Below, in pieces: positions 28,996 through 40,617 of a stretch of 64,000 nucleotides of DNA. The stretch spans positions 61,551 to 125,550 of the forward strand of contig NZ_JAFKFX010000039.1 of NCBI RefSeq assembly GCF_017308075.1. The letters run 5' to 3'. The notes under the pieces are model-generated. The model was not told the origin of the DNA and made no database searches. It saw only the letters and a program-made list of their open reading frames with translations. The DNA is from Allobosea sp. (lineage in GTDB: Bacteria > Pseudomonadota > Alphaproteobacteria > Rhizobiales > Beijerinckiaceae). The position numbers and the translations under genes were made by a program. Positions within the stretch are counted from its first letter, which is position 1; each line of letters begins with the position of its first letter.

Positions 28996-29922
28996 ATGGC
29001 TATCCGCTTCGACGAGATCGGCCACCGGCTGAAGGCCTACCGGCTCGGTCGCGGGCTTCTGGCCGAGGAGGTCGCCGAACGGCTCGGCATTTCGCGCGCC
29101 GCGGTCTACCGCATCGAGGGCGGCGGCGTCGTCAAGATCGAGACGCTCGAGCGGCTGGCGACGGTCCTCGAGACCACGGTGGCGTCACTGCTCGGAGCGG
29201 GGGTCGAATACTATGCGAGCCCCGTCGCCTATTTCGAGCGCATGCGTCAGATCGAGGAAGAGGCCGACCAGGTCGTCGCCCATTTCCCGCCGCTCTCCTA
29301 TCTGCTGACCTCCGGCGACTACGCCTCCTATCTCCGGCGGACGCTCGTAGAGGCCCTGCCGCCGCATGTCGAAGATCGCCACAAGGCCGAGGGCGAGATT
29401 GACGCGGTCATCGCCATCCTCGACGAGCGCCGCAAGGCCCGCGAGCGCCGTCGGCTCAGCGTCGTCAACTTCGTCAATGTGCTGGAGATCGAGCGCTGGC
29501 TGAAGCTCGGCATCGTCGGCCGCTTCAACCTTCCCGAGGACGAGCTCGCCCGGCGGCGTCTCGCGGCGCGGGCCGAGGTCGAGCATCTCCTGGCGCTGAT
29601 CGAAAGCGAGCCGATGGGCATCCAGATCGGCTTGATCGAGGAAACCCTGCCGAACATGACCTTCCAGCTCTTCCGGACCGCGGAGAAGACGCTGCTGGGC
29701 CTGAGCCCGTTCCGGCTCGGCGGCGAATTGCCGAACCTCCGTTCCGGCATCGCGATGCTCACGGCGGACGAGCAGCCGGTGCGGCTCTACGAGGCGCTGG
29801 CCGATGATCTTTGGCGCCGGGCCCGCAAGGGCAGCGAGGCCGGGGCGCTGCTGCGCGCGGCGCTGGCGCGCTCCGGCGCGACGGCCGAACGCGCGCCGAA
29901 ATCGGCTTCAGCCCGCGGCTGA
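28996..29922 (+). CDS. XRE-family helix-turn-helix regulator with large C-terminal domain
   Basis: 308 residues. Residues ~8-65 form a Cro/CI-type DNA-binding domain (GHRLKAYRLGRGLLAEEVAERLG then ISRAAVYRIEGG). The remaining ~240 residues are helical and soluble with YFERMRQIEEEADQVVAHFP and GIQIGLIEETLPNMTFQLFR; they resemble effector domains of metabolic XRE regulators, but no ligand can be named. ATG 28996 is used; the frame to 28882 adds unrelated residues. An inverted repeat lies 20 bases upstream. Convergent with and slightly overlapping the LOG-like gene (29908-29922). Confidence 0.87.
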   Translation: MAIRFDEIGHRLKAYRLGRGLLAEEVAERLGISRAAVYRIEGGGVVKIETLERLATVLETTVASLLGAGVEYYASPVAYFERMRQIEEEADQVVAHFPPLSYLLTSGDYASYLRRTLVEALPPHVEDRHKAEGEIDAVIAILDERRKARERRRLSVVNFVNVLEIERWLKLGIVGRFNLPEDELARRRLAARAEVEHLLALIESEPMGIQIGLIEETLPNMTFQLFRTAEKTLLGLSPFRLGGELPNLRSGIAMLTADEQPVRLYEALADDLWRRARKGSEAGALLRAALARSGATAERAPKSASARG

Positions 29923-30549
29923 TTCCGGCAGGCGCAGCACTGCGCGGGCGACCTGTTCGAGAGCTTCGCCAGGGTTCGCGCAGCGTGCCGCGCCGTCCAC
30001 CGCCGGGGCGCCTTCCAGAAGGAAGACCGGCCGCCCGAACTGCAGCGCGAAGGCGATCTCCGACAGCGTGCCATAGCCGCCGCCGATCGCGATCAGGCTG
30101 TGCGCTGCGCGCGCGATCAGGGCGTTGCGGGCGACGCCGATCCCGGTCGCGAGCGGTACGGTGACATAGGGATTGGCGGCTTCCGGCTCTGTGTCGGGGA
30201 GGAGGCCGATCGAGAGGCCGCCACCTTCGGCGACGCCGCGGCAGACGGCTTCCATCACGCCGGCGCGGCCGCCGCACAGCACCGTCAGCCCGTGCCGGGC
30301 GAGCAGGAGGCCGGTCTGTTCGGCTGCCTGCTCCTGTGCCTGCGTGGGTGTCCGCGTGCCGATCACCGCGACTGGCGTGCGCAGTGGCCGGCCGCTCGCA
30401 TGCTGGAGCCAATGCAGCGCCCCGATCGGCGTGACCGGCTCGCCCTCTGCGGACGCCGTGTCCGGCTGCCATTGCCGCGTCGCCGGCTCGAAGCCGTTGC
30501 CACGGTCGTCGCTGAGGCGGCCATGCGCCCGATCGAGGATGAGGCGCAT
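29908..30549 (-). CDS. TIGR00725/LOG-like nucleotide-binding protein
   Basis: Rossmann-type protein of the SLOG/TIGR00725 group, 213 residues from ATG 30549. Seen: VAVIGTRTPTQAQEQAAEQTG, the GGRAGVMEAVCRGVAEGGG motif and IGGGYGTLSEIAFALQFGRPV, equivalent to the GGxxGxM and PGGxGT motifs of LOG proteins, with Ile replacing the usual Pro. LOG relatives hydrolyse nucleoside monophosphates to free base; activity here is unproven. An N-terminal ~65 residues precede the core. It begins 11 bases after the pyrE stop, so it is probably co-transcribed with pyrE, which suits a nucleotide-related role. Confidence 0.85.
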   Translation of the reverse strand: MRLILDRAHGRLSDDRGNGFEPATRQWQPDTASAEGEPVTPIGALHWLQHASGRPLRTPVAVIGTRTPTQAQEQAAEQTGLLLARHGLTVLCGGRAGVMEAVCRGVAEGGGLSIGLLPDTEPEAANPYVTVPLATGIGVARNALIARAAHSLIAIGGGYGTLSEIAFALQFGRPVFLLEGAPAVDGAARCANPGEALEQVARAVLRLPESAAG

Positions 30550-30560
30550 GGCGTGGTGGC

Positions 30561-31271
30561 TCAGCCCTGCTTGGCCTGGTTGAAGTCCGAGATGCCGCCA
30601 TGCGCGGCCGACCACTTGGCCGGCTCGTTGAGGAAGCTCTCGACCTCGTCCAGCACCTTCGGCTCGAAATGGCCGCTCGCCTTGGCGACCTTGAGCACGT
30701 CCCACCAGGTGGTGAGATAGTGCAGGCCGACGCCGATCTCCTTCATCATCTCGCGGCCCTGCGGGAAGATGTCGTAGTAGAACAGCACGAAGCAGTGATC
30801 GACCTTGGCGCCGGCGTCGCGCAGCGCCTTGCAGAAGTTGACCTTGCTGCCGCCATCGGTGGCGAGGTCCTCGACCAGAAGCGTGCGCGCGCCCTCGACC
30901 ACCTCGCCTTCGATCTGCGCATTGCGGCCGAAGCCCTTGGGCTTCTTGCGCACATACTGCATCGGCAGCGCCAGCCGGTCGGAGATCCAGGCGGCGAAGG
31001 GGATGCCGGCCGTCTCGCCGCCGGCGACAATGTCGATCGACTCATAGCCGATGTCGCGCACGATCGTGGTCGCGGCGAAGTCGATCAGAGAGGAGCGCAG
31101 CCGCGGGAAGGAAATGATCTTGCGGCAATCGATATAGACCGGGCTCGCCCAGCCCGAGGTGAAGATGAAGGGCTTGTCCTTGTAGAAATGGACGGCCTTG
31201 ATTTCGAGCAGCATCTTGGCCGCCTCGAGGGCGATCGTGTCCCTGTCGACCGGCATGTAGAGATTGGGCAT
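30561..31271 (-). CDS. pyrE: Orotate phosphoribosyltransferase (first copy)
   Basis: Makes orotidine 5'-phosphate from orotate and PRPP in UMP synthesis. 236 residues from ATG 31271 with GGAGAAGAAG upstream. Seen: [54 protein letters not shown] and the PRPP-binding loop [13 protein letters not shown] (residues 131-143). A second pyrE lies at 37194-37874 with the same motifs but many substitutions. This copy is outside the large operon and divergent from it, so it is the likelier housekeeping enzyme. Confidence 0.95.
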
Positions 31272-31708
31272 GGTCTTCTTCTCCAGGGGCTGAGCGCCAT
31301 CGTTCGCCGGCTGAGGCGTTCGGGCGGGGCAATGTCGGGTTCGCAAACGGCCCCTTCTCAGCGCGATGACGGTCGAGGTCAATCCCTGAATCGCGCCACG
31401 ACACGGCGATGCTTGTGGAAAGCCCGCCGCTTTCCGAAAGTGTCGCAAAATTGAGATTTAGGATTGCAAATGAGATAATGCCGTGACAATCATGCCGGCG
31501 TGCGGCGCGGAGGGGCTATGTCTCGCGCAGCGGTGAGCTTCTCGCGGCAGGCCCTAGCGGTCGGTCGTCAAGTGACGCAGAAGCGTCCGGAGAAGATGGG
31601 TGCACGCCCAAACTCCAAAGGGACGGCAGGCAGCGGCACGCACGGGGCGTGCCCTGATGCATTTGCGTTCCTGTGCACGTCATCAGAAGCCAGACAGGGG
31701 ACTCCGCC
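31272..31708. other. Intergenic region between divergent pyrE and the MFS-led operon
   Basis: 437 bases without a convincing gene. It contains a slightly AT-richer stretch around 31445-31490 holding a plausible plus-strand promoter (listed separately). The leader from there to the MFS start is about 220 bases, long enough for a regulatory leader, but I see no recognisable riboswitch or PyrR-type site. Confidence 0.5.
31451..31479 (+). promoter_or_regulatory. Candidate sigma-70 promoter for the MFS-pyrK operon
   Basis: TTGAGA at 31451-31456 and GATAAT at 31474-31479 are separated by 17 bases and each matches the housekeeping consensus at five of six positions. It stands in a locally AT-rich patch on the strand of the downstream operon. 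Alphaproteobacterial promoters vary, so this is a candidate only. Confidence 0.4.
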
Positions 31709-32956
31709 GTGAGTGACAACCAGGCCGCAACCGCCGGCTCAATCGCCCATTCCGCACCGACAGAGGTCGACAGCAAGGCCAGGAAGGCTCTCTGGGGCTC
31801 GGCCATCGGCTATGCCATGGACGGCTTCGACTTGCTGATCCTCGGCTTCATGCTGCGGGCGATCTCGGCCGATCTCAATCTGACACAGGCGCAGGGCGCC
31901 TCGCTCGTCACCGCGACGCTGGTCGGCGCCGTGATCGGCGGTATCGGCTTCGGCATGCTCTCGGACCGGCTCGGCCGCGTGCGCGTGCTGACCTGGACCA
32001 TCGTCCTCTTCGCCGTCTTCACCGGCATGTGCGCCCTCGCGCAGGGCTATTGGGATCTCCTGATCTACCGCACCATCGCCGGCCTCGGCCTCGGCGGTGA
32101 ATTCGGCATCGGCATGGCGCTCGTCGCCGAGGCCTGGCCGGCTTCGAAGCGCGCCCGCGCCTCCTCCTATGTCGGCCTCGGCTGGCAGGTCGGCGTGCTC
32201 GCCGCGGCGATCGCGACCCCGCTGCTGCTGCCGACGATCGGCTGGCGCGGCATGTTCGCCATCGGCGTGCTGCCGGCGATCGCCGCCTATTTCATCCGCC
32301 ATTCGCTGCATGAGCCGGACGTCTTCGTCGCCCGCACCAAGGACAAGCCGAAGGAATCCGCGCTGCGTGCCCTGGTCAAGGATTGGGACACCACCAAGCT
32401 CAGCCTCGGCATGGTCATCCTCTGCTCGGTCCAGAACTTCGGCTATTACGGCGTGATGATCTGGTTGCCGAACTATCTGGCGACCCGCTTCGGCTTCGCC
32501 CTGACCCAGTCGGCTGTCTGGACCTCGGTCACCATCGCCGGCATGGCGCTCGGCATCTTCGCCTTCGGCCATATCGCCGACCGGATCGGCAGGCGCCCAG
32601 CCTTCTTCGGTTACATGCTAGGCGCCGCCGTGATGGTCGTGGTCTATTCGCGACTGACCGACCCGATCCATCTCCTGATCGGCGGCGCGGTGATGGGCTT
32701 CTTCGTCAACGGCATGCTCGGCGGCTATGGCGCGCTGATCAGCGAGCTCTTCCCGACCACGGCCCGCGCCACCGCCCAGAACGTGCTGTTCAATATCGGG
32801 CGCGGCGTCGGCGGCTTCGGACCGGTCGTGGTTGGCGCGATCGCCGCCACCTACAGCTTCGAACTGGCGATCGGCCTTTTGGCGACGCTCTACGTGCTCG
32901 ATATCCTGGCCATGTGGCTGCTGATCCCCGAGCGCCGCGGCGCCGAGCTCTCCTGA
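31709..32956 (+). CDS. MFS transporter of the aromatic/organic acid:proton symporter type
   Basis: Inner-membrane carrier, 415 residues with 12 predicted helices. Start at GTG 31709 (VSDNQAATAGSIAHS) after CAGGGGA. Seen: WGSAIGYAMDGFDLLILGFML in helix 1, the loop motif GMLSDRLGRVRVL between helices 2 and 3, RTIAGLGLGGEFGIGMALVAE in helix 4, and a second HIADRIGRRPAFF loop. This is the AAHS pattern used for benzoate-like and other organic acids. As first gene of the operon with pyrK-pyrD-hydrolase-pyrC-pyrE-aspA, it may import orotate, dihydroorotate or a related pyrimidine; that is inference. Confidence 0.9.
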   Translation: MSDNQAATAGSIAHSAPTEVDSKARKALWGSAIGYAMDGFDLLILGFMLRAISADLNLTQAQGASLVTATLVGAVIGGIGFGMLSDRLGRVRVLTWTIVLFAVFTGMCALAQGYWDLLIYRTIAGLGLGGEFGIGMALVAEAWPASKRARASSYVGLGWQVGVLAAAIATPLLLPTIGWRGMFAIGVLPAIAAYFIRHSLHEPDVFVARTKDKPKESALRALVKDWDTTKLSLGMVILCSVQNFGYYGVMIWLPNYLATRFGFALTQSAVWTSVTIAGMALGIFAFGHIADRIGRRPAFFGYMLGAAVMVVVYSRLTDPIHLLIGGAVMGFFVNGMLGGYGALISELFPTTARATAQNVLFNIGRGVGGFGPVVVGAIAATYSFELAIGLLATLYVLDILAMWLLIPERRGAELS

Positions 32957-32976
32957 GCCGCTGAAAGGAGCGAGCC

Positions 32977-33855
32977 ATGTCGATGCAACCGCTTCACCAG
33001 GGCTCGCTCGCCGCCACGACAGGCGGCGCGGGAGCCGCGGCTTCCTGCGCCTCCTGGAAGGCCAGCGTCGTCGCGGAACTCGCCGAGGTCGTCTCACATG
33101 AGGCGGTCAACGGCGAATACCGCCACCTCGTCGTCCGCTGCAGTGCCGAGGCTGCTGCGGCCGAGCCCGGCCAGTTCTTCCAGTTGCTCTGCCCTCAGCC
33201 CGTCGGCGAGCAGCCCTTCCTGCGTCGCCCGATGAGCCTTTACGGGGCCGATCCGGAGAAGCGCCAGGTCGAGTTCCTCTACAAGGTGACGGGCGCCGGC
33301 ACCCGCGGCCTCGATACGCTGCGGGTCGGCGACCGGCTCGACATCATGGGGCCGCTCGGCACCGGTTTCACGCTCGATCCGTCCTGGCGCAGCATCGTCG
33401 CCGTCGGCCGCGGCGCCGGCCTTGCGACCCTCGCCCCGCTGGCGAAGGCGGCCAAGGCCAATGGCACCCGCGTCACCGCGGTGTTCAGCGCCCGCCGGCC
33501 GGACCTGCTCGTCTCGGTCGATCTCTTCCACAGCCATGGTGCCGACGTCATCGCCGTCACCGATTCCGAATCGACCAGCGGCCCGGCCAATGTCGAGCGC
33601 ATCCTGCGCCGGCTGATCGCCGACGGGGCCTGCGATGCCTTCTTCACCTGCGGCTCGAGCCGGCTGATGCGCGTCCAGCAACGGCTGGCGCAGGAATTCG
33701 GCCTGCCCGGCCAGGTCGCGATGGAGCAGCAGATGGCCTGCGGAATCGGGCTCTGCTACTGCTGTGTGCGCGACTTCAACGTCAATGGCGAGATCGTCCA
33801 CCGGCGCGTCTGCTGGGACGGCCCGGTCTTCGACCTGATGGAGGCGCTGCCATGA
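32977..33855 (+). CDS. pyrK: Dihydroorotate dehydrogenase B electron-transfer subunit
   Basis: FAD and [2Fe-2S] protein that passes electrons between the PyrD FMN and NAD. 292 residues. Seen: flavin-binding RRPMSLYGADPE (residues ~83-94), the NAD-binding SIVAVGRGAGLATLAPLAKA, and iron-sulfur cysteines C255, C260, C263 and C279 (MACGIGLCYCC ... RVCWDGPVF). All four ligands are present. An N-terminal Ala-rich ~24 residues is extra. pyrD begins in its stop codon (ATGA, 33852-33855). Proteobacteria usually rely on quinone-linked PyrD, so an NAD-linked type B enzyme here is notable. Confidence 0.94.
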   Translation: MSMQPLHQGSLAATTGGAGAAASCASWKASVVAELAEVVSHEAVNGEYRHLVVRCSAEAAAAEPGQFFQLLCPQPVGEQPFLRRPMSLYGADPEKRQVEFLYKVTGAGTRGLDTLRVGDRLDIMGPLGTGFTLDPSWRSIVAVGRGAGLATLAPLAKAAKANGTRVTAVFSARRPDLLVSVDLFHSHGADVIAVTDSESTSGPANVERILRRLIADGACDAFFTCGSSRLMRVQQRLAQEFGLPGQVAMEQQMACGIGLCYCCVRDFNVNGEIVHRRVCWDGPVFDLMEALP

Positions 33856-34814
33856 GCCTGACGTCGGAGGTCGATCTCTCGGTCGCCATTGGCGGTCTGA
33901 CCCTGCGCAATCCGGTCATGCCGGCCTCCGGCACCTTCGCCGAAGGGCTGGAGAAGGTGATGGACTTCAACCGGCTCGGCGCCTTCGTCACCAAGACGAT
34001 TACCCGCGAATTGCGCGCCGGAAACCCGCTGCCGCGCGTCGTCGAGCGGCCGGGCAGCCTGATCAATGCGATCGGCATCCCCTCCAAGGGCGTGCGCTAT
34101 TTCGTCGAGCAGACGATGCCGCATTATGCGGCCTATGACACGCCGCTGGTGGTAAGCATTTCGGCGCCGACCGCCGAGGGCTTCGCCAGCCTCGCCGCCG
34201 AACTCTCGATCCCCGGCATCGCCGCGATCGAGGCCAATATCTCCTGTCCGAACATCGAGGAGGACGGCAAGGCCTTCGCGATGCGCGCCGAATCCACCGA
34301 GAAGGTGACGCGGCAATTGCGCGAGGCGACGAACCTGCCGCTCTGGGTCAAGCTGACGCCCAACACCGGCGACGTGCCGGAGGTGGCGCGTGCTGCTGAG
34401 GCCGCCGGCGCCGATGCGGTGGTGGTCGCCAACACGATCCTGTCGATGGCGATCGACCTCAAGACCTTCAAGCCCTGCCTCGGCAACATCATGGGCGGGC
34501 TCTCCGGCCCGGCGATCAAGCCGATCGTGCTGCGCCAGGTCTTCCAATGCGCCAAGGCGGTGAAGATCCCGGTGATCGGCTGCGGCGGCATCTCCACCGC
34601 CGAGGACGCCATCGAGTACATGCTCGCCGGCGCCAGCGCCGTGCAGGTCGGCACCGCGACGTTCCTGCAGCCGGCGGCGATGACCACGATCATCGACGGT
34701 CTCAGGAGCTTCTGCCTGCATCGCGAGATCCCGCGCATCACCGATCTGATCCGCGGCGTCGTCATCGAGGAAGCCGACGAGCGGGACCTCGCCTGGCTGG
34801 ATCCCGTATCGTGA
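33852..34814 (+). CDS. pyrD: Dihydroorotate dehydrogenase, class 1B catalytic subunit
   Basis: FMN enzyme interconverting dihydroorotate and orotate; with PyrK it uses NAD and is reversible. 320 residues. Seen: RNPVMPASGTFAEG, PRVVERPGSLINAIGIPSKG, the catalytic Cys132 in IEANISCPNIEEDGK, KLTPNTGDVPEVARAAE and the phosphate-binding GCGGISTAEDAIEYMLAGAS. A cysteine base marks class 1; class 2 enzymes use serine. It overlaps pyrK at its start and the hydrolase gene at its end (GTGA, 34811-34814), so the three proteins are made together. Confidence 0.94.
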   Translation: MSLTSEVDLSVAIGGLTLRNPVMPASGTFAEGLEKVMDFNRLGAFVTKTITRELRAGNPLPRVVERPGSLINAIGIPSKGVRYFVEQTMPHYAAYDTPLVVSISAPTAEGFASLAAELSIPGIAAIEANISCPNIEEDGKAFAMRAESTEKVTRQLREATNLPLWVKLTPNTGDVPEVARAAEAAGADAVVVANTILSMAIDLKTFKPCLGNIMGGLSGPAIKPIVLRQVFQCAKAVKIPVIGCGGISTAEDAIEYMLAGASAVQVGTATFLQPAAMTTIIDGLRSFCLHREIPRITDLIRGVVIEEADERDLAWLDPVS

Positions 34815-36106
34815 CCGCGCACCCCGCCAATCTGAGCAACGTCTTCAGTGGCGACGAGGGCGACCGCGTCCTGGCCGAGGCCCTGTTCGACGCGCTGCGC
34901 GAGGCGACGGGCGACGGCGTCGGCATCACCCGCGAAGCCTATAGCGAGCGCGAATCCCTGGCGCTCGACCTCGTCGAGGCCAAGGCGCGCGAACTCGGCC
35001 TTGTCACCGAGCGCGACGCCGGCGCCAATCTGGTGGTGACGTTGGAAGGCGCCGAGCCGGAGCTGCCCTTCCTGGCCTGCGGCTCGCATCTCGATTCGGT
35101 GCCGCAGGGCGGCAATTTCGACGGTGCGGCCGGTGTCATCGCTGGCCTCGCCATCATCGCCCGCTTCAAGGAGGAAGGCTTCGTGCCGCGCCGGACCATC
35201 AAGGTCTATGCGCTGCGCGGCGAGGAAAGTGCCCGCTTCGGCAAGGCCTATATGGGTTCGAGCGCGCTGTTCGGGAAACTCACCGCCGCCGATCTCGCGG
35301 TGCGCGACCATGCCACCGGCCGAAACCTGGCGCAGTGCATGGCCGATATCGGAGTCGACATGGCCCGGGTCGAGAAGGGCGAGCCCTTGCTCGATCCCGC
35401 GACCGTCGCGGCCTGGATCGAACTGCATATCGAGCAGGGACCGGTGCTGGTCGCGCGCGATCTGCCGGTCGGCATTGTCACGGGCATCCGTGGCAATGTC
35501 CGCCATCGCAGCGTCGAATGCATCGGCGAGGCCGGCCATTCCGGCGCGGTGCCGCGCTGGCTCCGGCGCGACGCGGTCTTCGCCACGGCCGAGCTGATCA
35601 CTCATCTCGACCGGCACTGGCGCACCCTGCTGGAGCGCGGCCGCGACGTGGTGGTGACGGCCGGCGTGCTCGGCACCGACCCGCAGGAGCACGCCATCGC
35701 CCGGATTCCCGGCAAGGTCAGCTTCTCCTTCGAGGTGCGCAGCCAGAACCGCGAGACGCTGGAGGCGTTCTACGACCTGTTCCTCTCGGAATGCCGGCTG
35801 GTCGGCGAGGAGAGGGGGGTCGAATTCAGCTTCGACCGCCGCCTCGAATCGGCCCCGGCGGTGATGGATGCTGGCTGGATCGCCCGGCTGAAAGCGGCGG
35901 CGCGCGGGCTCGGCCTGCCCGACGAGGAGATTCCGAGCGGCGCCGGCCATGATGCGGCGGTCTTCGCCAATGCCGGCATCCCGAGCGCGATGATCTTCGT
36001 GCGTAACGAGCACGGATCGCATAATCCCAGGGAAGCGATGGTGATCGATGATTTCCTAGCCGGTATCGCGGTGATGCGGGCGGCCATCCGGGAGGCGGTA
36101 CAATGA
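34811..36106 (+). CDS. M20-family N-carbamoyl-amino-acid hydrolase (possible ureidosuccinase)
   Basis: Binuclear-metal amidohydrolase, 431 residues from GTG 34811. Seen: metal site ACGSHLDSVPQGGNFDGAAG (residues ~95-114), the bridging and catalytic Glu pair in YALRGEESARFGKAYMG, ELHIEQGPVL with a metal His, EAGHSGAVP from the lid domain and SGAGHDAAVFA near the end. This is the HyuC / beta-ureidopropionase / allantoate-amidohydrolase group. Wedged between pyrD and pyrC by GTGA and ATGA overlaps, it most simply hydrolyses N-carbamoyl-L-aspartate, the product of reversed dihydroorotase, to aspartate, CO2 and ammonia. The specificity is inferred. Confidence 0.92.
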   Translation: MTAHPANLSNVFSGDEGDRVLAEALFDALREATGDGVGITREAYSERESLALDLVEAKARELGLVTERDAGANLVVTLEGAEPELPFLACGSHLDSVPQGGNFDGAAGVIAGLAIIARFKEEGFVPRRTIKVYALRGEESARFGKAYMGSSALFGKLTAADLAVRDHATGRNLAQCMADIGVDMARVEKGEPLLDPATVAAWIELHIEQGPVLVARDLPVGIVTGIRGNVRHRSVECIGEAGHSGAVPRWLRRDAVFATAELITHLDRHWRTLLERGRDVVVTAGVLGTDPQEHAIARIPGKVSFSFEVRSQNRETLEAFYDLFLSECRLVGEERGVEFSFDRRLESAPAVMDAGWIARLKAAARGLGLPDEEIPSGAGHDAAVFANAGIPSAMIFVRNEHGSHNPREAMVIDDFLAGIAVMRAAIREAVQ

Positions 36107-37197
36107 GCGTTTCGCAACTCTTCGACGGTGCACCGGCTGCGGATGCGGAGGCGCCGGTCTCGCTCACCATTCGCCGGCCCGATGACTGGCATGTCCATCT
36201 GCGCGATGGCGCCATGCTGAAGGCGGTGCTGCCCTTCACCGCCGCCCAGTTCGCCCGCGGCATCATCATGCCGAACCTCGTACCGCCGGTGACGACGATC
36301 GCCGCGGCGGCCTCCTATCGCGAGCGCATCCTCGCCGCCCGTCCGGAAGGCTGCGATTTCATCCCGCTGATGACCTGCTATCTCACCGACACCACCGTGC
36401 CGGACGAGATCGAGCGCGGCTTCCGGGAGGGCGTCTGGGCCGCCGCCAAGCTCTATCCGGCCGGCGCCACCACCAACGCCCACCACGGCGTCACGAATAT
36501 TTCCAAGCTCGCCCCGGTGCTGGAGCGCATGGAGAAGATCGGCATGCCGGTCCTCGTCCATGGCGAGGCAACCGACCCCGAGGTCGACATCTTCGACCGC
36601 GAGGCCGTGTTCATGGAGCAGGAGATGCTGCCGCTGCTGAAGCGCCATCCCGGCCTCAAGGTGGTGATCGAGCATGTCACCACCGCCGAGACGGTCGCGA
36701 TCGTCCGGGCCCATGCCGGGCGCGCCGCTGGCACGATCACCCCGCACCATCTGGTCATCAACCGCACCACGCTCTTCCAGGGCGGCCTGCGCCCGCATCT
36801 CTACTGCCTGCCGGTCGCCAAGCGCGAGAGCCACCGCCTCGCCCTCTGCGAGGCCGTCACCTCCGGCGATGCCTGCTTCTTCATCGGCACCGACACCGCC
36901 CCGCATCTGCGCGGCGCCAAGCAGGCCGAATGCTGCTCGGCCGGCGTCTTCGGCGGCGCCACCGCGCTGCAGACCTATGTCCAGGTCTTCGACGAGGCGG
37001 GCGCGCTCGACCGTTTCGAGGCCTTCGCCTCCGAGAATGGCGCGCGTTTCTACGGCCTGCCGCTGAACGAGGGCACGATCACCCTGGAGCGCAAGCCGAG
37101 CCGGGCGCTCGCCGCGGTCGAGGTCGAGGACAGCGAAGTCGTGATCTTCCGCGGCGCCGAGAACCTGCCCTGGTCGATCGGCGAGGTTCGCCCGTGA
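36103..37197 (+). CDS. pyrC: Dihydroorotase, PyrC class II type
   Basis: Zinc amidohydrolase that reversibly closes N-carbamoyl-aspartate to dihydroorotate. 364 residues, E. coli PyrC-like. Seen: metal His30 and His32 in DDWHVHLRDGAML, IIMPNLVPPVTT, the carboxylated Lys116 in VWAAAKLYPAGATTN, VLVHGEATDPEVDIFDRE, VIEHVTTAET, ITPHHLVINR and the catalytic Asp in FFIGTDTAPHLRGAK. A short N-terminal extension (~20 residues) precedes the core. Overlaps both neighbours (36103-36106 and 37194-37197). The equilibrium allows either synthesis or breakdown. Confidence 0.96.
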   Translation: MSVSQLFDGAPAADAEAPVSLTIRRPDDWHVHLRDGAMLKAVLPFTAAQFARGIIMPNLVPPVTTIAAAASYRERILAARPEGCDFIPLMTCYLTDTTVPDEIERGFREGVWAAAKLYPAGATTNAHHGVTNISKLAPVLERMEKIGMPVLVHGEATDPEVDIFDREAVFMEQEMLPLLKRHPGLKVVIEHVTTAETVAIVRAHAGRAAGTITPHHLVINRTTLFQGGLRPHLYCLPVAKRESHRLALCEAVTSGDACFFIGTDTAPHLRGAKQAECCSAGVFGGATALQTYVQVFDEAGALDRFEAFASENGARFYGLPLNEGTITLERKPSRALAAVEVEDSEVVIFRGAENLPWSIGEVRP

Positions 37198-37874
37198 GCG
37201 CCGGCGAGATCGGCGAGGCGGTCGCCCGGCTGCTGTTCCGGGCCGGCGCCATCCATGTCAGCCGCCAGCAGCCCTATGTGCTCGCAGCCGGCTGGGCGAG
37301 CCCGGTTTATGTCGATGTCCGTCTGCTGCTCGGCGATCCGCAATTGCGCCGCGCCGTCACCGATCTCGCCGTCCGCTATGCCGAGGCGGCCTTTCCCGCC
37401 GGCAGCTTCGATGCCGTCGCCGGGGCCGAGACCGCCGGCATTCCCTTCGCGGCCTGGTTCGCCGACCGCACCGGGCTGAAGCTGCGTTATGTCCGCAAGC
37501 GCCCGCTCGGCGTCGGCCGCAATGCCCAGGTCGAGGGCGGCCCGGTCGATGGGCTCCGCGTGCTCCTGGTTGACGATCTGACCACCGATGGCGGCAGCAA
37601 GCTCGGCTTCGCCCGTGGCCTGCGCTCTGCAGGCGCCAGCGTCGAGCACATCCTGACGATCTTCTACCACGACGTCTTTCCCGGCGCCGGCGAGCGCCTG
37701 CAGGAGGCCGGGCTTGCCCTGCACCCGCTCGCCACCTGGGCCGATGTCCTGCGCGCCGACGCCGGCAAGGAGCTCGCCGCGGAGGATCGCGCCGAGATCG
37801 AGCGCTTCCTTGCCGATCCCGTCGCCTGGTCGACGCGCCATGGTGGCCGCGTCAGCCTTTCCCCGCGCGTCTGA
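37194..37874 (+). CDS. pyrE: Orotate phosphoribosyltransferase (second copy)
   Basis: Paralogue of the pyrE at 30561-31271. 226 residues from GTG 37194, which overlaps the pyrC stop. Seen: [54 protein letters not shown] and the PRPP loop LLVDDLTTDGGSKLGFA, so catalytic loops are intact. The C-terminal half differs widely from the first copy except for the shared STRHGG/SAAHGG-type end. Within the operon it could divert imported orotate to OMP for salvage while the other enzymes degrade the rest. aspA follows after 45 bases. Confidence 0.94.
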   Translation: MSAGEIGEAVARLLFRAGAIHVSRQQPYVLAAGWASPVYVDVRLLLGDPQLRRAVTDLAVRYAEAAFPAGSFDAVAGAETAGIPFAAWFADRTGLKLRYVRKRPLGVGRNAQVEGGPVDGLRVLLVDDLTTDGGSKLGFARGLRSAGASVEHILTIFYHDVFPGAGERLQEAGLALHPLATWADVLRADAGKELAAEDRAEIERFLADPVAWSTRHGGRVSLSPRV

Positions 37875-37919
37875 CACGCAGGGCCTGTGATGAAGCCCAG
37901 ATCCCGCAAGGATTCCGCC

Positions 37920-39437
37920 ATGGCCGATGCCGCAGCAGCAACGCCGATCACCGCGCCGCCTCAGGCCGACAGCGTCCAGCTCGCGACGACGCAGACGATC
38001 GCGCTCGCCGAGGTCAGAACCCGCCGCGAGCATGACCTGCTCGGCGACATCGACGTGCCGGCCGACGCCTATTGGGGCGTGCATACGCTGCGCGCCGTCG
38101 GCAATTTCCCGATCACCGGCGTGCCCGTCGGTCATTTCCCGGAATTCGTGCGGGCCTTGGCCCTGGTCAAGCAGGCGGCGGCGCGCGCCAATCGCCGCCT
38201 CGGCAATCTTCCCGCCGCCAAGGCCGACGCCATCGAGCGCGCCTGCGACCTGATTGCGCGCGACGGCCGCTTCCACGACCAGTTCGTCGTCGATGCCGTC
38301 CAGGGCGGGGCCGGCACCTCGACCAATATGAACGCCAACGAGGTCATTGCCAACGTCGCGCTCGAGCTGATGGGCAAGGCCAAGGGCGACTACGCCGCGC
38401 TCCATCCCCATGACGACGTCAACATGGCGCAGTCGACCAACGACGCCTACCCGACGGCGCTGCGCCTCGCCGTGATCTTCGCCACCGAGCCGATGATCGC
38501 GGCGCTGGACGAGCTCGCCTTCGCCTTCAAGGCCAAGGCGGTCGAGTTCGCCGATGTGCTGAAGATCGGCCGGACCCAGCTCCAGGACGCCGTGCCGATG
38601 ACGCTCGGCCAGGAGTTCGACGCCTTCTTCGCCACGATCAAGGAGGATGTCTCGCGGTTGCGCGAGGCGGCGGCGCTGTTTCGCGAGGTCAATCTCGGCG
38701 CGACCGCGATCGGCACCGGCATCACCGCCGATGCGCGCTATGCCTCACTCGCCATCGAGGAACTGGCCCGCGCCGCCCGCCAGCCCATGGTGCCGGCGAC
38801 GAACCTGATCGAGGCGACCTCCGACATGGGCGCCTTCGTGCTGTTCTCCGGCGTGCTGAAGCGCGTCGCGGTCAAACTCTCGAAGATCTGCAACGATCTG
38901 CGCCTGCTTTCCAGCGGCCCGCGCGCCGGCTTCAGCGAGATCAGGCTGCCGGCGGTGCAGGCCGGCTCCTCGATCATGCCGGGCAAGGTCAACCCGGTGA
39001 TCCCGGAAGTGGTCAACCAGGTCGCCTATCTCGTCATCGGCCACGACCTCACCGTGACGCTCTGCGCCGAGGGCGGCCAGCTCCAGCTCAACGCCTTCGA
39101 GCCGACCATCGGCTATTGCCTGCTCTCCTCGCTGCGCCATCTCACCGCCGCGGTGACGACGCTGACGACGCGTTGCGTCACCGGCATCGAGGCCGATCGC
39201 GAGCGCTGCATGGCGCTGGTCGAGGATTCGATCGGCCTCGTCACGGCGCTGGGGCCACGGCTCGGCTACGAGGCCTCCTCGCGCGTGGCGCGCCGCGCCC
39301 TCGCCGAAAAGCGCAAGGTCGCCGAGATCGTGCTCGAGGAAGGCCTGCTCAGCCGTGCCGAGCTCGACGAGCTCCTGAAGATCGAGGCGATGACGGCCCC
39401 GTCGCGCCCGAAGCCCGCCGGAAAGGCGCGGGCCTGA
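37920..39437 (+). CDS. aspA: Aspartate ammonia-lyase
   Basis: Converts L-aspartate to fumarate and ammonia in the cytoplasm. 505 residues from ATG 37920 with CAAGGA seven bases upstream; in-frame GTG 37887/ATG 37890 are alternatives. The first ~34 residues are a low-complexity extension before the canonical start REHDLLGDIDVPADAYWGVHT. Seen: GAGTSTNMNANEV (130-142), MAQSTNDAYPTA, KIGRTQLQDAVPMTLGQEF, and the flexible catalytic loop GSSIMPGKVNPVIPEVVNQ (349-367), where fumarases differ. Lying 45 bases after the second pyrE, it would consume aspartate made by the upstream hydrolase. Confidence 0.94.
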   Translation: MADAAAATPITAPPQADSVQLATTQTIALAEVRTRREHDLLGDIDVPADAYWGVHTLRAVGNFPITGVPVGHFPEFVRALALVKQAAARANRRLGNLPAAKADAIERACDLIARDGRFHDQFVVDAVQGGAGTSTNMNANEVIANVALELMGKAKGDYAALHPHDDVNMAQSTNDAYPTALRLAVIFATEPMIAALDELAFAFKAKAVEFADVLKIGRTQLQDAVPMTLGQEFDAFFATIKEDVSRLREAAALFREVNLGATAIGTGITADARYASLAIEELARAARQPMVPATNLIEATSDMGAFVLFSGVLKRVAVKLSKICNDLRLLSSGPRAGFSEIRLPAVQAGSSIMPGKVNPVIPEVVNQVAYLVIGHDLTVTLCAEGGQLQLNAFEPTIGYCLLSSLRHLTAAVTTLTTRCVTGIEADRERCMALVEDSIGLVTALGPRLGYEASSRVARRALAEKRKVAEIVLEEGLLSRAELDELLKIEAMTAPSRPKPAGKARA

Positions 39438-39484
39438 ACGATCGGCCGCCGCAAAATCGGACGGCCGCCTACCCGGAGAGGACA

Positions 39485-39790
39485 ATGAACGAGCTGTTGA
39501 ACTGGCTGCTCCAGCAGAAGGGCAGCATGAACACCTATCTCGAATTCCAGGGCCGCGCCCTCGAACTGCGCGCCGCCGAGCCCGAGCATGCCGCGCTGCT
39601 GCGCCTGCTCGCCGATCTCGCCGGCCGCTTCTCTGAAGCCTATGATCGCCGCCCGCTGCCGCTCGACGTCGCGGAGGGTGCGCTGCAGCAGCTCACCGGC
39701 CTGATCGAGCAGGCGCTGGCTCCAGGTGCTGCCGATCCGGCGGACCGGCTTGCCCTGCTCAACCGGATCGGCGCCGCCGAACTCGCCTGA
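39485..39790 (+). CDS. Small helical hypothetical protein after aspA
   Basis: 101 residues, not recognised. A GAGAGGA ribosome site lies four bases before ATG 39485 and the gene follows aspA by 47 bases, so it probably belongs to the same operon. The sequence is mostly amphipathic helix: LLNWLLQQKGSMNTYLEFQG, then LLRLLADLAGRFSEAYD and LQQLTGLIEQALAPG. No cysteine, signal or membrane segment. It may be a subunit-sized helper or binding protein, but no function can be assigned. A terminator-like hairpin follows about 45 bases after the stop. Confidence 0.75.
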   Translation: MNELLNWLLQQKGSMNTYLEFQGRALELRAAEPEHAALLRLLADLAGRFSEAYDRRPLPLDVAEGALQQLTGLIEQALAPGAADPADRLALLNRIGAAELA

Positions 39791-39835
39791 GGCGGCCGCC
39801 TGCGAGGCCCACCCCTGGCGACGAGGCCGACCATG

Positions 39836-39860
39836 CAGCCCGGCCCTGGCCGGGTTGTTT
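39836..39860 (+). terminator. Probable intrinsic terminator of the MFS-pyrK...aspA operon
   Basis: CCCGGC (39839-39844) pairs with GCCGGG (39849-39854) around a CCTG loop, followed directly by TTGTTT. It lies 46 bases after the last operon gene. Short stem, but GC-only and with a T-rich trailer. Confidence 0.6.
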
Positions 39861-39958
39861 GCCGTCCGGGCTCGTCACCGGCCGGTTTTAGGCCTGTTCG
39901 AATTCGCTGAGGCGTGGCGCGCGCGGCGCTCAGATGGCGAGAAGCGGGTTCGTCCGTT

Positions 39959-40177
39959 TCATCGCCAGGAGGGAGATCCGCTACAGCTCGGGCGCGTTTC
40001 AAAAGGCTCGATCACAGCCTTTCCTCTGACGATCACTATGCGCTCTTTGACGCCATCGACGCGGAAGCGAATGACGCCTTCGCCTCGGACCTCGTCCATG
40101 ATGTAAGCTGGCAAGCCGGCGCGCAGCGTCTTTTCGATCGATCGCGCGGAAAATTGCTTCAACTGGTCTTCGTACAT
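39959..40177 (-). CDS. Small hypothetical protein
   Basis: 72 residues from ATG 40177, which has GGTGGAG five bases upstream on the minus strand. Opens MYEDQLKQFSARSIEKTLRA and contains EVRGEGVIRFRVDGVKERIVIV, a soluble, balanced composition that looks like a real protein; the last ~10 residues (SCSGSPSWR) look less natural. The plus-strand frame over the same DNA (39914-40216) is Arg-rich and less convincing. No family recognised. Modest confidence that it is expressed. Confidence 0.5.
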   Translation of the reverse strand: MYEDQLKQFSARSIEKTLRAGLPAYIMDEVRGEGVIRFRVDGVKERIVIVRGKAVIEPFETRPSCSGSPSWR

Positions 40178-40350
40178 AGGCGACTCCACCGGCGGCGAGA
40201 GCAGGCTACGTCGTAATCCTCGCCATTATGGTGATCGCCAGGAACGGAACAAGAGCGAAGACTGCAAACGCAGCCTTGGCATCTTTGCATGACAATGGGG
40301 TGACCGACGGCGCAGCTGAGCCTGCTGTCAAGGGATTGGTCGTGCCGACC

Positions 40351-40617
40351 TCAATGCACCGTGGCTGTGTCTTCCTCGTCCGGCGCGATCAGCTTTTCCA
40401 AGCCGAGTTCTTCAAGCCCTTCGGTGAACTCGGCGAAGGCCGCAGCATCAGTCGCGAACTGCTCTTCCCACACGATCGAGTCGCCTTCGTCATCGACCAG
40501 TTCCAACGTCCAGCTGTCGCTGTCCCGGAGCCGGTAGATCTCGATCTGCACCGTCAGTCCATCGCTGGTGAAACTCCGGCAAAGGGCCGAACGGATGATG
40601 TCTGGGGAATCTGTCAT
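40351..40617 (-). CDS. Small acidic hypothetical protein
   Basis: 88 residues from ATG 40617 (MTDSPDIIRSALCRSFTSDG). Strongly acidic, with a beta-rich centre TVQIEIYRLRDSDSWTLELVDDEG and a helical acidic end FAEFTEGLEELGLEKLIAPDEED. The frame stays open to 40707, but those extra residues look non-coding. The ribosome site is weak. Not recognised; the pattern resembles small conserved alphaproteobacterial proteins that follow housekeeping genes. It is transcribed away from the AT-rich island at 40745. Confidence 0.65.
   Translation of the reverse strand: MTDSPDIIRSALCRSFTSDGLTVQIEIYRLRDSDSWTLELVDDEGDSIVWEEQFATDAAAFAEFTEGLEELGLEKLIAPDEEDTATVH

Follow-up and report, generated by a model that had tools for sequence, protein, structure and literature searches.

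Gene content of the cluster

The window analysed here, a stretch of 64,000 nt from Allobosea sp. (NZ_JAFKFX010000039.1; host assembly of 5.55 Mb in 62 contigs), carries a cluster of eight plus-strand genes between positions 31709 and 39790. In order, they encode an MFS carrier, PyrK, a class 1B PyrD, an M20 hydrolase, a dimeric PyrC, a second PyrE (PyrE2), the aspartate ammonia-lyase AspA and a small protein (Table 1). A preliminary description of this DNA had spoken of eight same-strand genes with five tight junctions, which open reading frame coordinates and family profile searches bear out: a gap of 20 bp is followed by four 4-bp overlaps of the ATGA/GTGA kind and by gaps of at most 45 bp and of 47 bp. 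The eight genes would form one transcript. Two further parts of the cluster were missing from that description, namely the gene of an XRE-family regulator (xre) and a tandem repeat ahead of the carrier gene. Between xre and the carrier gene stand a divergent canonical pyrE (pyrE1) and a SLOG-family gene. The cluster as a whole is genuine and conserved; it is probably mobile and most likely serves catabolism, and its gene content and context make it probable that it is a regulated operon for the breakdown of orotate.

The hydrolase has both the score and the fold of the hydantoinase/carbamoylase family TIGR01879. Five other members of this family score above the cut-off on other host contigs, and no other cluster gene was found in the 15.6–19.5 kb examined round each. 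PyrD, which also exceeds the cut-off of TIGR01037 (301 vs 270), belongs to class 1B, and its best PDB sequence matches are 5ue9 and 1ep1. The N[AS]xG-type and NxSCPN motifs are kept in all 55 cluster PyrDs, TKT[IV]T in 42 of them and NT in 53. The adjacent PyrK has a nucleotide domain and the cysteines of a [2Fe-2S] centre (CGIGLCYCC); the PDB sequences that match it best are those of the PyrK homologue 4ylf and, after it, of the PyrK structures 1ep3 and 5ksw. All 41 cluster PyrKs have Ser-Ala-Arg at the end of the second strand of the nucleotide domain, at a site that reads Gly-Ala-Arg in the single reference; this is only a hint of a preference for NADPH. One PyrK (L087) is missing an Fe-S cysteine.

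For PyrC, the best structure match is the dihydroorotase (DHOase) of E. coli, aligned over the whole length of the protein. The alignment keeps HxHxR, MPNL, AAKLYP, ATTN, HGE, EHxTT and D(S/T)APH, at what we take to be the metal and substrate residue positions of a dihydroorotase. Across 25 loci, EHxTT and D(S/T)APH occur in every PyrC and MPNL in 24; little weight is given to the stricter patterns AAK[LV]YP (11), R[PA]H (12), HGE (18), the HxHxR form (21) and A[TS]TN (22). AspA is an aspartate ammonia-lyase by NF008909, with fumarase models outscored (fumC 447, cut-off 665), and it falls narrowly below the equivalog cut-off of TIGR00839 (647 vs 681). The carrier reaches 315.7 bits against TIGR00895, below the cut-off of 418.6. 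The small protein, tested from position 39488, has no match in the Pfam or NCBIfam profiles. The start of xre was chosen by the MAIRF start common to the proteins of the window and of G052, a congener.

Table 1. Features of the cluster and its surroundings, by position in the window
Feature	Position	Strand	Basis
xre, XRE-family regulator, predicted operon regulator	28996..29922	+	HTH_31/HTH_3 above Pfam cut-offs
SLOG/TIGR00725-family gene	29908..30705	-	family assignment
pyrE1, canonical divergent PyrE, loop Lys kept	30564..31283	-	loop RKKPKG
tandem operator-like repeat GCAAAATTGAGATTT-n3-ATTGCAAATGAGA	31445..31475	+	alignment of 12 congeneric upstream regions
sigma-70-like promoter TTGAGA-17-GATAAT, TG before second hexamer, overlaps repeat	31451..31479	+	consensus match only
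MFS carrier, aromatic acid/H+ symporter-like, predicted orotate importer	31709..32956	+	MFS_1 above cut-off
pyrK, class 1B dihydroorotate dehydrogenase electron-transfer subunit	32977..33855	+	PF10418 (DHODB_Fe-S_bind) above cut-off
pyrD, class 1B, predicted orotate reductase with PyrK	33852..34814	+	NF005574 348 vs cut-off 269
M20 hydantoinase/carbamoylase-family hydrolase, predicted N-carbamoyl-L-aspartate amidohydrolase (ureidosuccinase)	34811..36106	+	TIGR01879 299 vs 204
pyrC, dimeric dihydroorotase, predicted to open dihydroorotate, accessory	36103..37197	+	TIGR00856 410 vs 293
pyrE2, orotate phosphoribosyltransferase-like, loop Lys to Leu (RKRPLG)	37194..37874	+	NF001729 249 vs 245
aspA, aspartate ammonia-lyase, accessory	37920 (or 37887/37890)..39437	+	NF008909 719 vs 510
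small all-helical protein, no known family	39485..39790	+	conserved in cluster; model pLDDT 93.6

Linkage of the hydrolase with pyr genes

How closely does the hydrolase keep company with pyr genes? The main locus set consists of the best 80 of 594 related loci from one scan of species genomes, scored with hidden Markov models of the hydrolase that were built from cluster members; the line at 540 bits was drawn after the scores were seen. At or above this line lie 58 hydrolases, all of them beside pyrK-pyrD (34 loci) and/or a pyrE within 5 kb (50 loci); among the 22 below it, pyrK and pyrD accompany one and pyrE none. The 34 loci with pyrK and pyrD on the same strand within 3.5 kb are called layout 1, and the other 24 of the 58, layout 2. 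A tree and a second set of loci served as checks on this linkage. In the tree, 63 pyr-linked hydrolases split from 27 others (support 99/97). The second set is made up of 19 loci from the family to which the window belongs: pyrK and pyrD accompany 10 of its 11 hydrolases of at least 540 bits, and none of the eight below that line has any other cluster gene. A search for synteny of the hydrolase with pyrC, pyrE and pyrDK had been proposed earlier; the linkage of hydrolase and pyrKD is conserved in both locus sets. All nine plasmid regions examined, chosen among the 12 highest-ranked of 1233 records, likewise hold pyrK, pyrD and the hydrolase. A more distant set of the three genes, outside the main clade (L109, 4845-8000; hydrolase 424 bits), may have arisen separately or branched off early.

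Within the genus, the hydrolase is present in 12 of the 61 genomes searched, or 12 of the 59 of good quality, window included. The 11 other congeners were found through the hydrolase; all have xre, MFS, pyrK, pyrD and pyrE as well, and the small gene is present in nine, aspA in three and pyrC in two. G052 has xre, MFS, pyrK, pyrD, hydrolase, pyrE and the small gene consecutively on one strand, with xre directly adjoining MFS. pyrC and aspA are optional additions, and the core product is therefore probably aspartate rather than fumarate. The preliminary description had proposed a route from orotate to fumarate; the context supports its catabolic core, which probably ends at aspartate, with PyrC and AspA as extras.

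A similar freedom is found in the wider set. In layout 1, pyrC is present in 16 of the 34 loci, xre lies within 8 kb in 20, and relatives of the small protein occur in 18; the 24 layout-2 loci have none of these relatives. aspA stands beside the cluster in the window, in three congeners (L170, L172, L173) and in five loci of other genera (L054, L058, L059, L065, L089), with differing gene orders. The carrier varies too: among 42 layout-1 loci, TRAP genes near the cluster comprise a large permease (16 loci, where it takes the place of MFS), a binding protein (17) and a small permease (15), and DctP and TRAP_S1 are above cut-off for one representative locus. Uridine-phosphorylase-like genes and ABC transporters lie near the cluster in L084 (2665-6754), L139 (4750-8833) and L081 (15937-17524), perhaps hinting at a link with nucleoside uptake; the phosphorylase-like genes of L139 and L084 match TIGR01718 below its cut-off, and the L139 transporter is of the NMT1/THI5 type.

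Layout 2 looks different. The tree contains a nested clade (support 100/98) in which the hydrolase gene follows a pyrE; 16 of its 17 hydrolases come from layout 2. In three loci read closely (L067, L071, L075), a divergent regulator-like gene precedes pyrE and the hydrolase gene, with no pyrKD; for L067 and L071 the regulator is a confirmed LysR protein, and L071 continues with a family-3 binding-protein transporter. A class 1B PyrD above cut-off was found in 4 of the 23 layout-2 genomes searched, a set that leaves out L039 and contains many drafts. A draft Cupriavidus contig (L063, 8752-9897) holds pyrK and pyrD as broken-frame pieces, which may reflect either sequence errors or decay, and L108 has a divergent pyrD-pyrK pair.

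The operon does not stand alone: related clusters occur patchily in alpha- and betaproteobacteria, and also in 53 Klebsiella plasmid records. The cluster of the Klebsiella pneumoniae plasmid NZ_CP050823.1 (L033, 4164-9780) has pyrK, pyrD, the hydrolase gene, pyrC, an HTH gene and the small gene; it has no pyrE, its MFS gene is divergent, and lacY-lacZ are near. Its DNA is matched at at least 99% in 55 plasmid records, all from Klebsiella and 53 of them over at least 80% of its length, and megablast gave no match in E. coli complete genomes. Milk or mastitis is the origin of 7 of 30 listed Klebsiella plasmid records, a count with no baseline for comparison.

The hydrolase tree mixes families: the hydrolase of the window falls with those of Acetobacteraceae and of a Neorhizobium plasmid, and that of Klebsiella lies inside the betaproteobacteria. 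Such mixing suggests horizontal transfer. No relative was found among viral contigs, and 11 phage records hold distant carbamoylases, all below 60% identity. A census of the phylum gave at least 4 of 397 genomes, own genome included, a figure that may be low because at most four candidates per genome were scored. In the family, 21 of 149 genomes have a match at E ≤ 1e-100, and 13 of these, own genome included, at E ≤ 1e-158.

The repeat, the regulator and PyrE2

Upstream of the carrier gene, an alignment of 12 congeneric regions reveals the half-sites GCAAAATTGAGA and GCAATTGAGA in tandem. The single motif precedes MFS in 12 of 12 loci, and the paired motif in 11. As the pattern was derived from these same loci, only its absence elsewhere counts as a test: the repeat is absent from the 22 lower-scoring loci and from nine other stretches of the host genome, and it has one match in the window and none in shuffles of the window. 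Beyond the genus the repeat is all but missing, with counts for the single motif of 0 of 9 family loci, 1 of 34 layout-1 and 2 of 24 layout-2 loci, and for the paired motif of 1, 0 and 1 of these, respectively. The operator-like repeat is a genus-level feature.

The promoter-like match agrees with the consensus at 10 of 12 positions (two such matches in 30550-40500 vs 0.7, standard deviation 1.0, in shuffles). It overlaps the repeat, so that repression would be the simplest assumption. The window's repeat still lies beside MFS although xre ends 1.5 kb away.

Another question concerns PyrE2. Where the catalytic loop of PyrE1 reads RKKPKG, that of PyrE2 reads RKRPLG, and the missing Lys presumably corresponds to K103 of the Salmonella enzyme, needed there for fast catalysis. 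Each of the 12 congeneric cluster copies has Leu at this position. The window, L170 and L175 each carry one more pyrE, which runs opposite to the cluster, and these additional copies keep Lys. Among the other loci, Lys is kept in 15 of 27 layout-1 copies and in 5 of 24 from layout 2 (lost in the other 19); a good part of the clusters holds a PyrE with an intact loop.

The designation of this gene as a second PyrE, made earlier, holds for the family score, which only just exceeds the NF001729 cut-off (249 vs 245); TIGR00336 is missed (81 vs 106.8), and the loop Lys that marks an orotate phosphoribosyltransferase (OPRT) is lacking. Median ratios of nonsynonymous to synonymous substitution rates (dN/dS) are 0.11-0.16 for XRE, MFS, PyrK, PyrD and the hydrolase, 0.22 for PyrE2 and 0.31 for the small protein. 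PyrE2 is maintained under purifying selection without the canonical loop, and it is probably not a plain second OPRT.

Readings of the cluster and known systems

Many cells leak orotate, and cow's milk contains much of it. How might the cluster use this compound? The MFS carrier would import orotate, and PyrDK, driven by NAD(P)H, would reduce it to dihydroorotate. PyrC would open this ring to N-carbamoyl-L-aspartate, the cluster's own copy serving here and probably the biosynthetic copy elsewhere, and the M20 hydrolase would cleave the product to aspartate, CO2 and ammonia. Where AspA is present, it would deaminate aspartate to fumarate and release a second ammonia. Control of the operon would lie with the XRE protein, acting on the tandem repeat that overlaps the promoter. 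Every substrate in this scheme, the direction of flux, the pairing of regulator and operator, and the inducer are what we infer from the genes.

The catabolic role first suggested for the pyr-linked hydrolase is well supported by its context: the second pyrD and pyrC, the conserved linkage, and aspA in several genera. The preliminary description had asked for a separate class 2 pyrD and a biosynthetic pyrC elsewhere in the genome, whose lack would have made the cluster the only pathway to uridine monophosphate (UMP), and both were found. The host genome has two matches to PF01180 (DHO_dh) at E ≤ 0.001, the cluster PyrD and a PyrD on contig 12 that is of the quinone-type class 2 (TIGR01036 375 vs 200). 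Contig 15 carries a pyrB-pyrC pair (NF002032 407 vs 263) whose pyrC is of the other type (TIGR00857 342 vs 279). Because of these genes, the cluster is not the sole UMP route. A class 2 PyrD is also above cut-off in 30 of the 34 layout-1 genomes; the others are L037, L051, L064 and L079, the first three being labelled as metagenome assemblies. A plain UMP operon was considered and set aside as best reading, in view of the biosynthetic copies elsewhere and of a hydrolase of a pathway intermediate as constant member.

Could the cluster instead serve salvage? Its carrier would then import orotate or dihydroorotate, PyrDK and PyrE2 would lead to orotidine monophosphate for UMP, and the hydrolase would drain excess carbamoyl-aspartate. 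Class 1B PyrDK can run either way, and pyrE is near most high-scoring hydrolases and is their main partner in layout 2. What makes this account unlikely is that the loop Lys is gone from every congeneric cluster copy and from many others, that a canonical pyrE stands next door on the other strand, and that a carbamoyl-aspartate hydrolase and an aspartase work against synthesis. Moreover, no homologue of the host pyrB was found among the neighbour proteins of 42 layout-1 loci, and none of 13 recurrent neighbour groups resembles pyrF or car when the start of one sequence per group is inspected by eye. A second UMP operon for low oxygen, where an NAD-linked PyrDK needs no quinones, would account for PyrK, PyrD, PyrC and PyrE homologues standing together, but it is very improbable. 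Such a pathway would lose an intermediate of its own to the hydrolase, which accompanies pyrK-pyrD in all 11 congeners, themselves found through it, whereas pyrC is present in only two; here too the missing pyrB neighbour and the biosynthetic copies elsewhere count.

Perhaps the pyr homologues have changed specificity, and the true substrate is a dihydropyrimidine of the uracil or thymine type, N-carbamoyl-glutamate, allantoate or some other ureido acid. This is improbable as well, given that all 55 cluster PyrDs keep N[AS]xG and NxSCPN, that PyrC matches true dihydroorotases, that the two DHO_dh-family matches of the host are its cluster and class 2 PyrDs, and that aspA beside the cluster in several genera points to aspartate as the product. 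Uracil-type dihydropyrimidine catabolism was rejected for the host, where no PreA-type protein was found (both PF01180 matches at E ≤ 0.001 are PyrDs); other clusters may still have uracil-type substrates.

Several findings weigh against the orotate scheme. PyrK reaches no full-length NCBIfam PyrK cut-off (best 131.8 bits vs 270) and is therefore judged divergent, and class 1B PyrDK is biosynthetic in many Gram-positives. The hydrolase scores higher with the subfamily-level models NF009527 'Zn-dependent hydrolase' (441.9 vs 461, just below cut-off) and NF006771 'allantoate amidohydrolase' (393.9 vs 399, a near miss) than with ErtE, its best equivalog-level model. In most clusters pyrC and aspA are absent, and the route is complete there only if other copies serve; the scheme also assigns no part to the cluster pyrE. 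The one exception in the second set, a hydrolase of 595 bits (L144, 9708-11009, minus strand), has no other cluster genes on its 17.8-kb contig. The main result against one story for the whole clade is layout 2: class 1B PyrD is rare there, so that orotate reduction by PyrDK is unsupported for most of these loci, whose substrate may be dihydroorotate or carbamoyl-aspartate itself. The next gene downstream of the L144 hydrolase looks by eye like hslU, unrelated to the cluster.

To our knowledge, ureidosuccinase (EC 3.5.1.7) has no assigned gene, it and the catabolic, pyridine-nucleotide-linked orotate reductase are known from biochemistry only, and there is no bacterial gene set for orotate breakdown in air. 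A bolder and tentative proposal, possible though rather doubtful, is that a horizontally spread orotate module supplies the sequences of both enzymes, with a PyrE paralogue repurposed. This paralogue would have lost the OPRT loop and might act, for example, as an orotate- or phosphoribosyl pyrophosphate-binding partner or sensor of the hydrolase step, to which it would have stayed tied where pyrKD has been lost.

If the catabolic reading of the cluster is true, an orotate route known from old enzymology gains testable genes, and there is an explanation for the additional PyrD, PyrC and PyrE annotations that are otherwise puzzling in proteobacteria and on plasmids of Klebsiella. Class 1B PyrD together with PyrE need not then always signal UMP synthesis, and PyrE2 offers a natural case of an OPRT fold with a possibly changed role. 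No description of such an operon was found among the papers listed by searches of the open-access literature, judged by titles and the beginnings of abstracts, a scope outside which most subscription journals lie. As far as that literature reaches, the operon, its regulator and its altered PyrE appear new, and the chemistry is of a known kind.

Among known gene sets, those of dehydrogenase family X1, proposed to be catabolic, also place an enzyme of the DHODase superfamily next to an amidohydrolase and an M20 peptidase; in the parts of that study consulted, X1 is a clade apart from class 1B, linked to ygeW, ygeY, ssnA and xdh, and no orotate operon is described (Barba et al. 2013, PMC4016543). 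ErtE (NF058540), an N-carbamyl-L-glutamate amidohydrolase, acts on a substrate one carbon longer than carbamoyl-aspartate and, as the best equivalog-level model, counts in favour of the orotate scheme; with 300.5 bits the cluster hydrolase is well under its cut-off of 520 and is not a member. Nor does the hydrolase belong with the allantoate deiminase AllC (TIGR03176, 209 vs 598), and in structural alignment it shares 28% identity with the allantoate amidohydrolase AllC/EcAAH (4pxd, 1z2l).

The reductive catabolism of uracil and thymine proceeds through PydA/PreAT, dihydropyrimidinase and beta-ureidopropionase. In both cases a ring would be reduced and opened, and a carbamoyl group cleaved by an amidohydrolase; the cluster differs in using PyrDK and a dihydroorotase-type PyrC on a carboxylated ring, with aspartate rather than beta-alanine as the product. 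Closer still is the chemistry of Clostridium (Zymobacterium) oroticum, which ferments orotate with orotate reductase, dihydroorotase and ureidosuccinase. Earlier work, going back to the enzymology of the 1950s, dealt with orotate breakdown in this species and in aerobes (EC 3.5.1.7 and 1.3.1.14/15). The proposed sequence from orotate through dihydroorotate and carbamoyl-aspartate to aspartate is the same; unlike that anaerobe, whose enzymes are known biochemically, the present case consists of genes alone, a proteobacterial operon with a carrier, a regulator and an altered PyrE.

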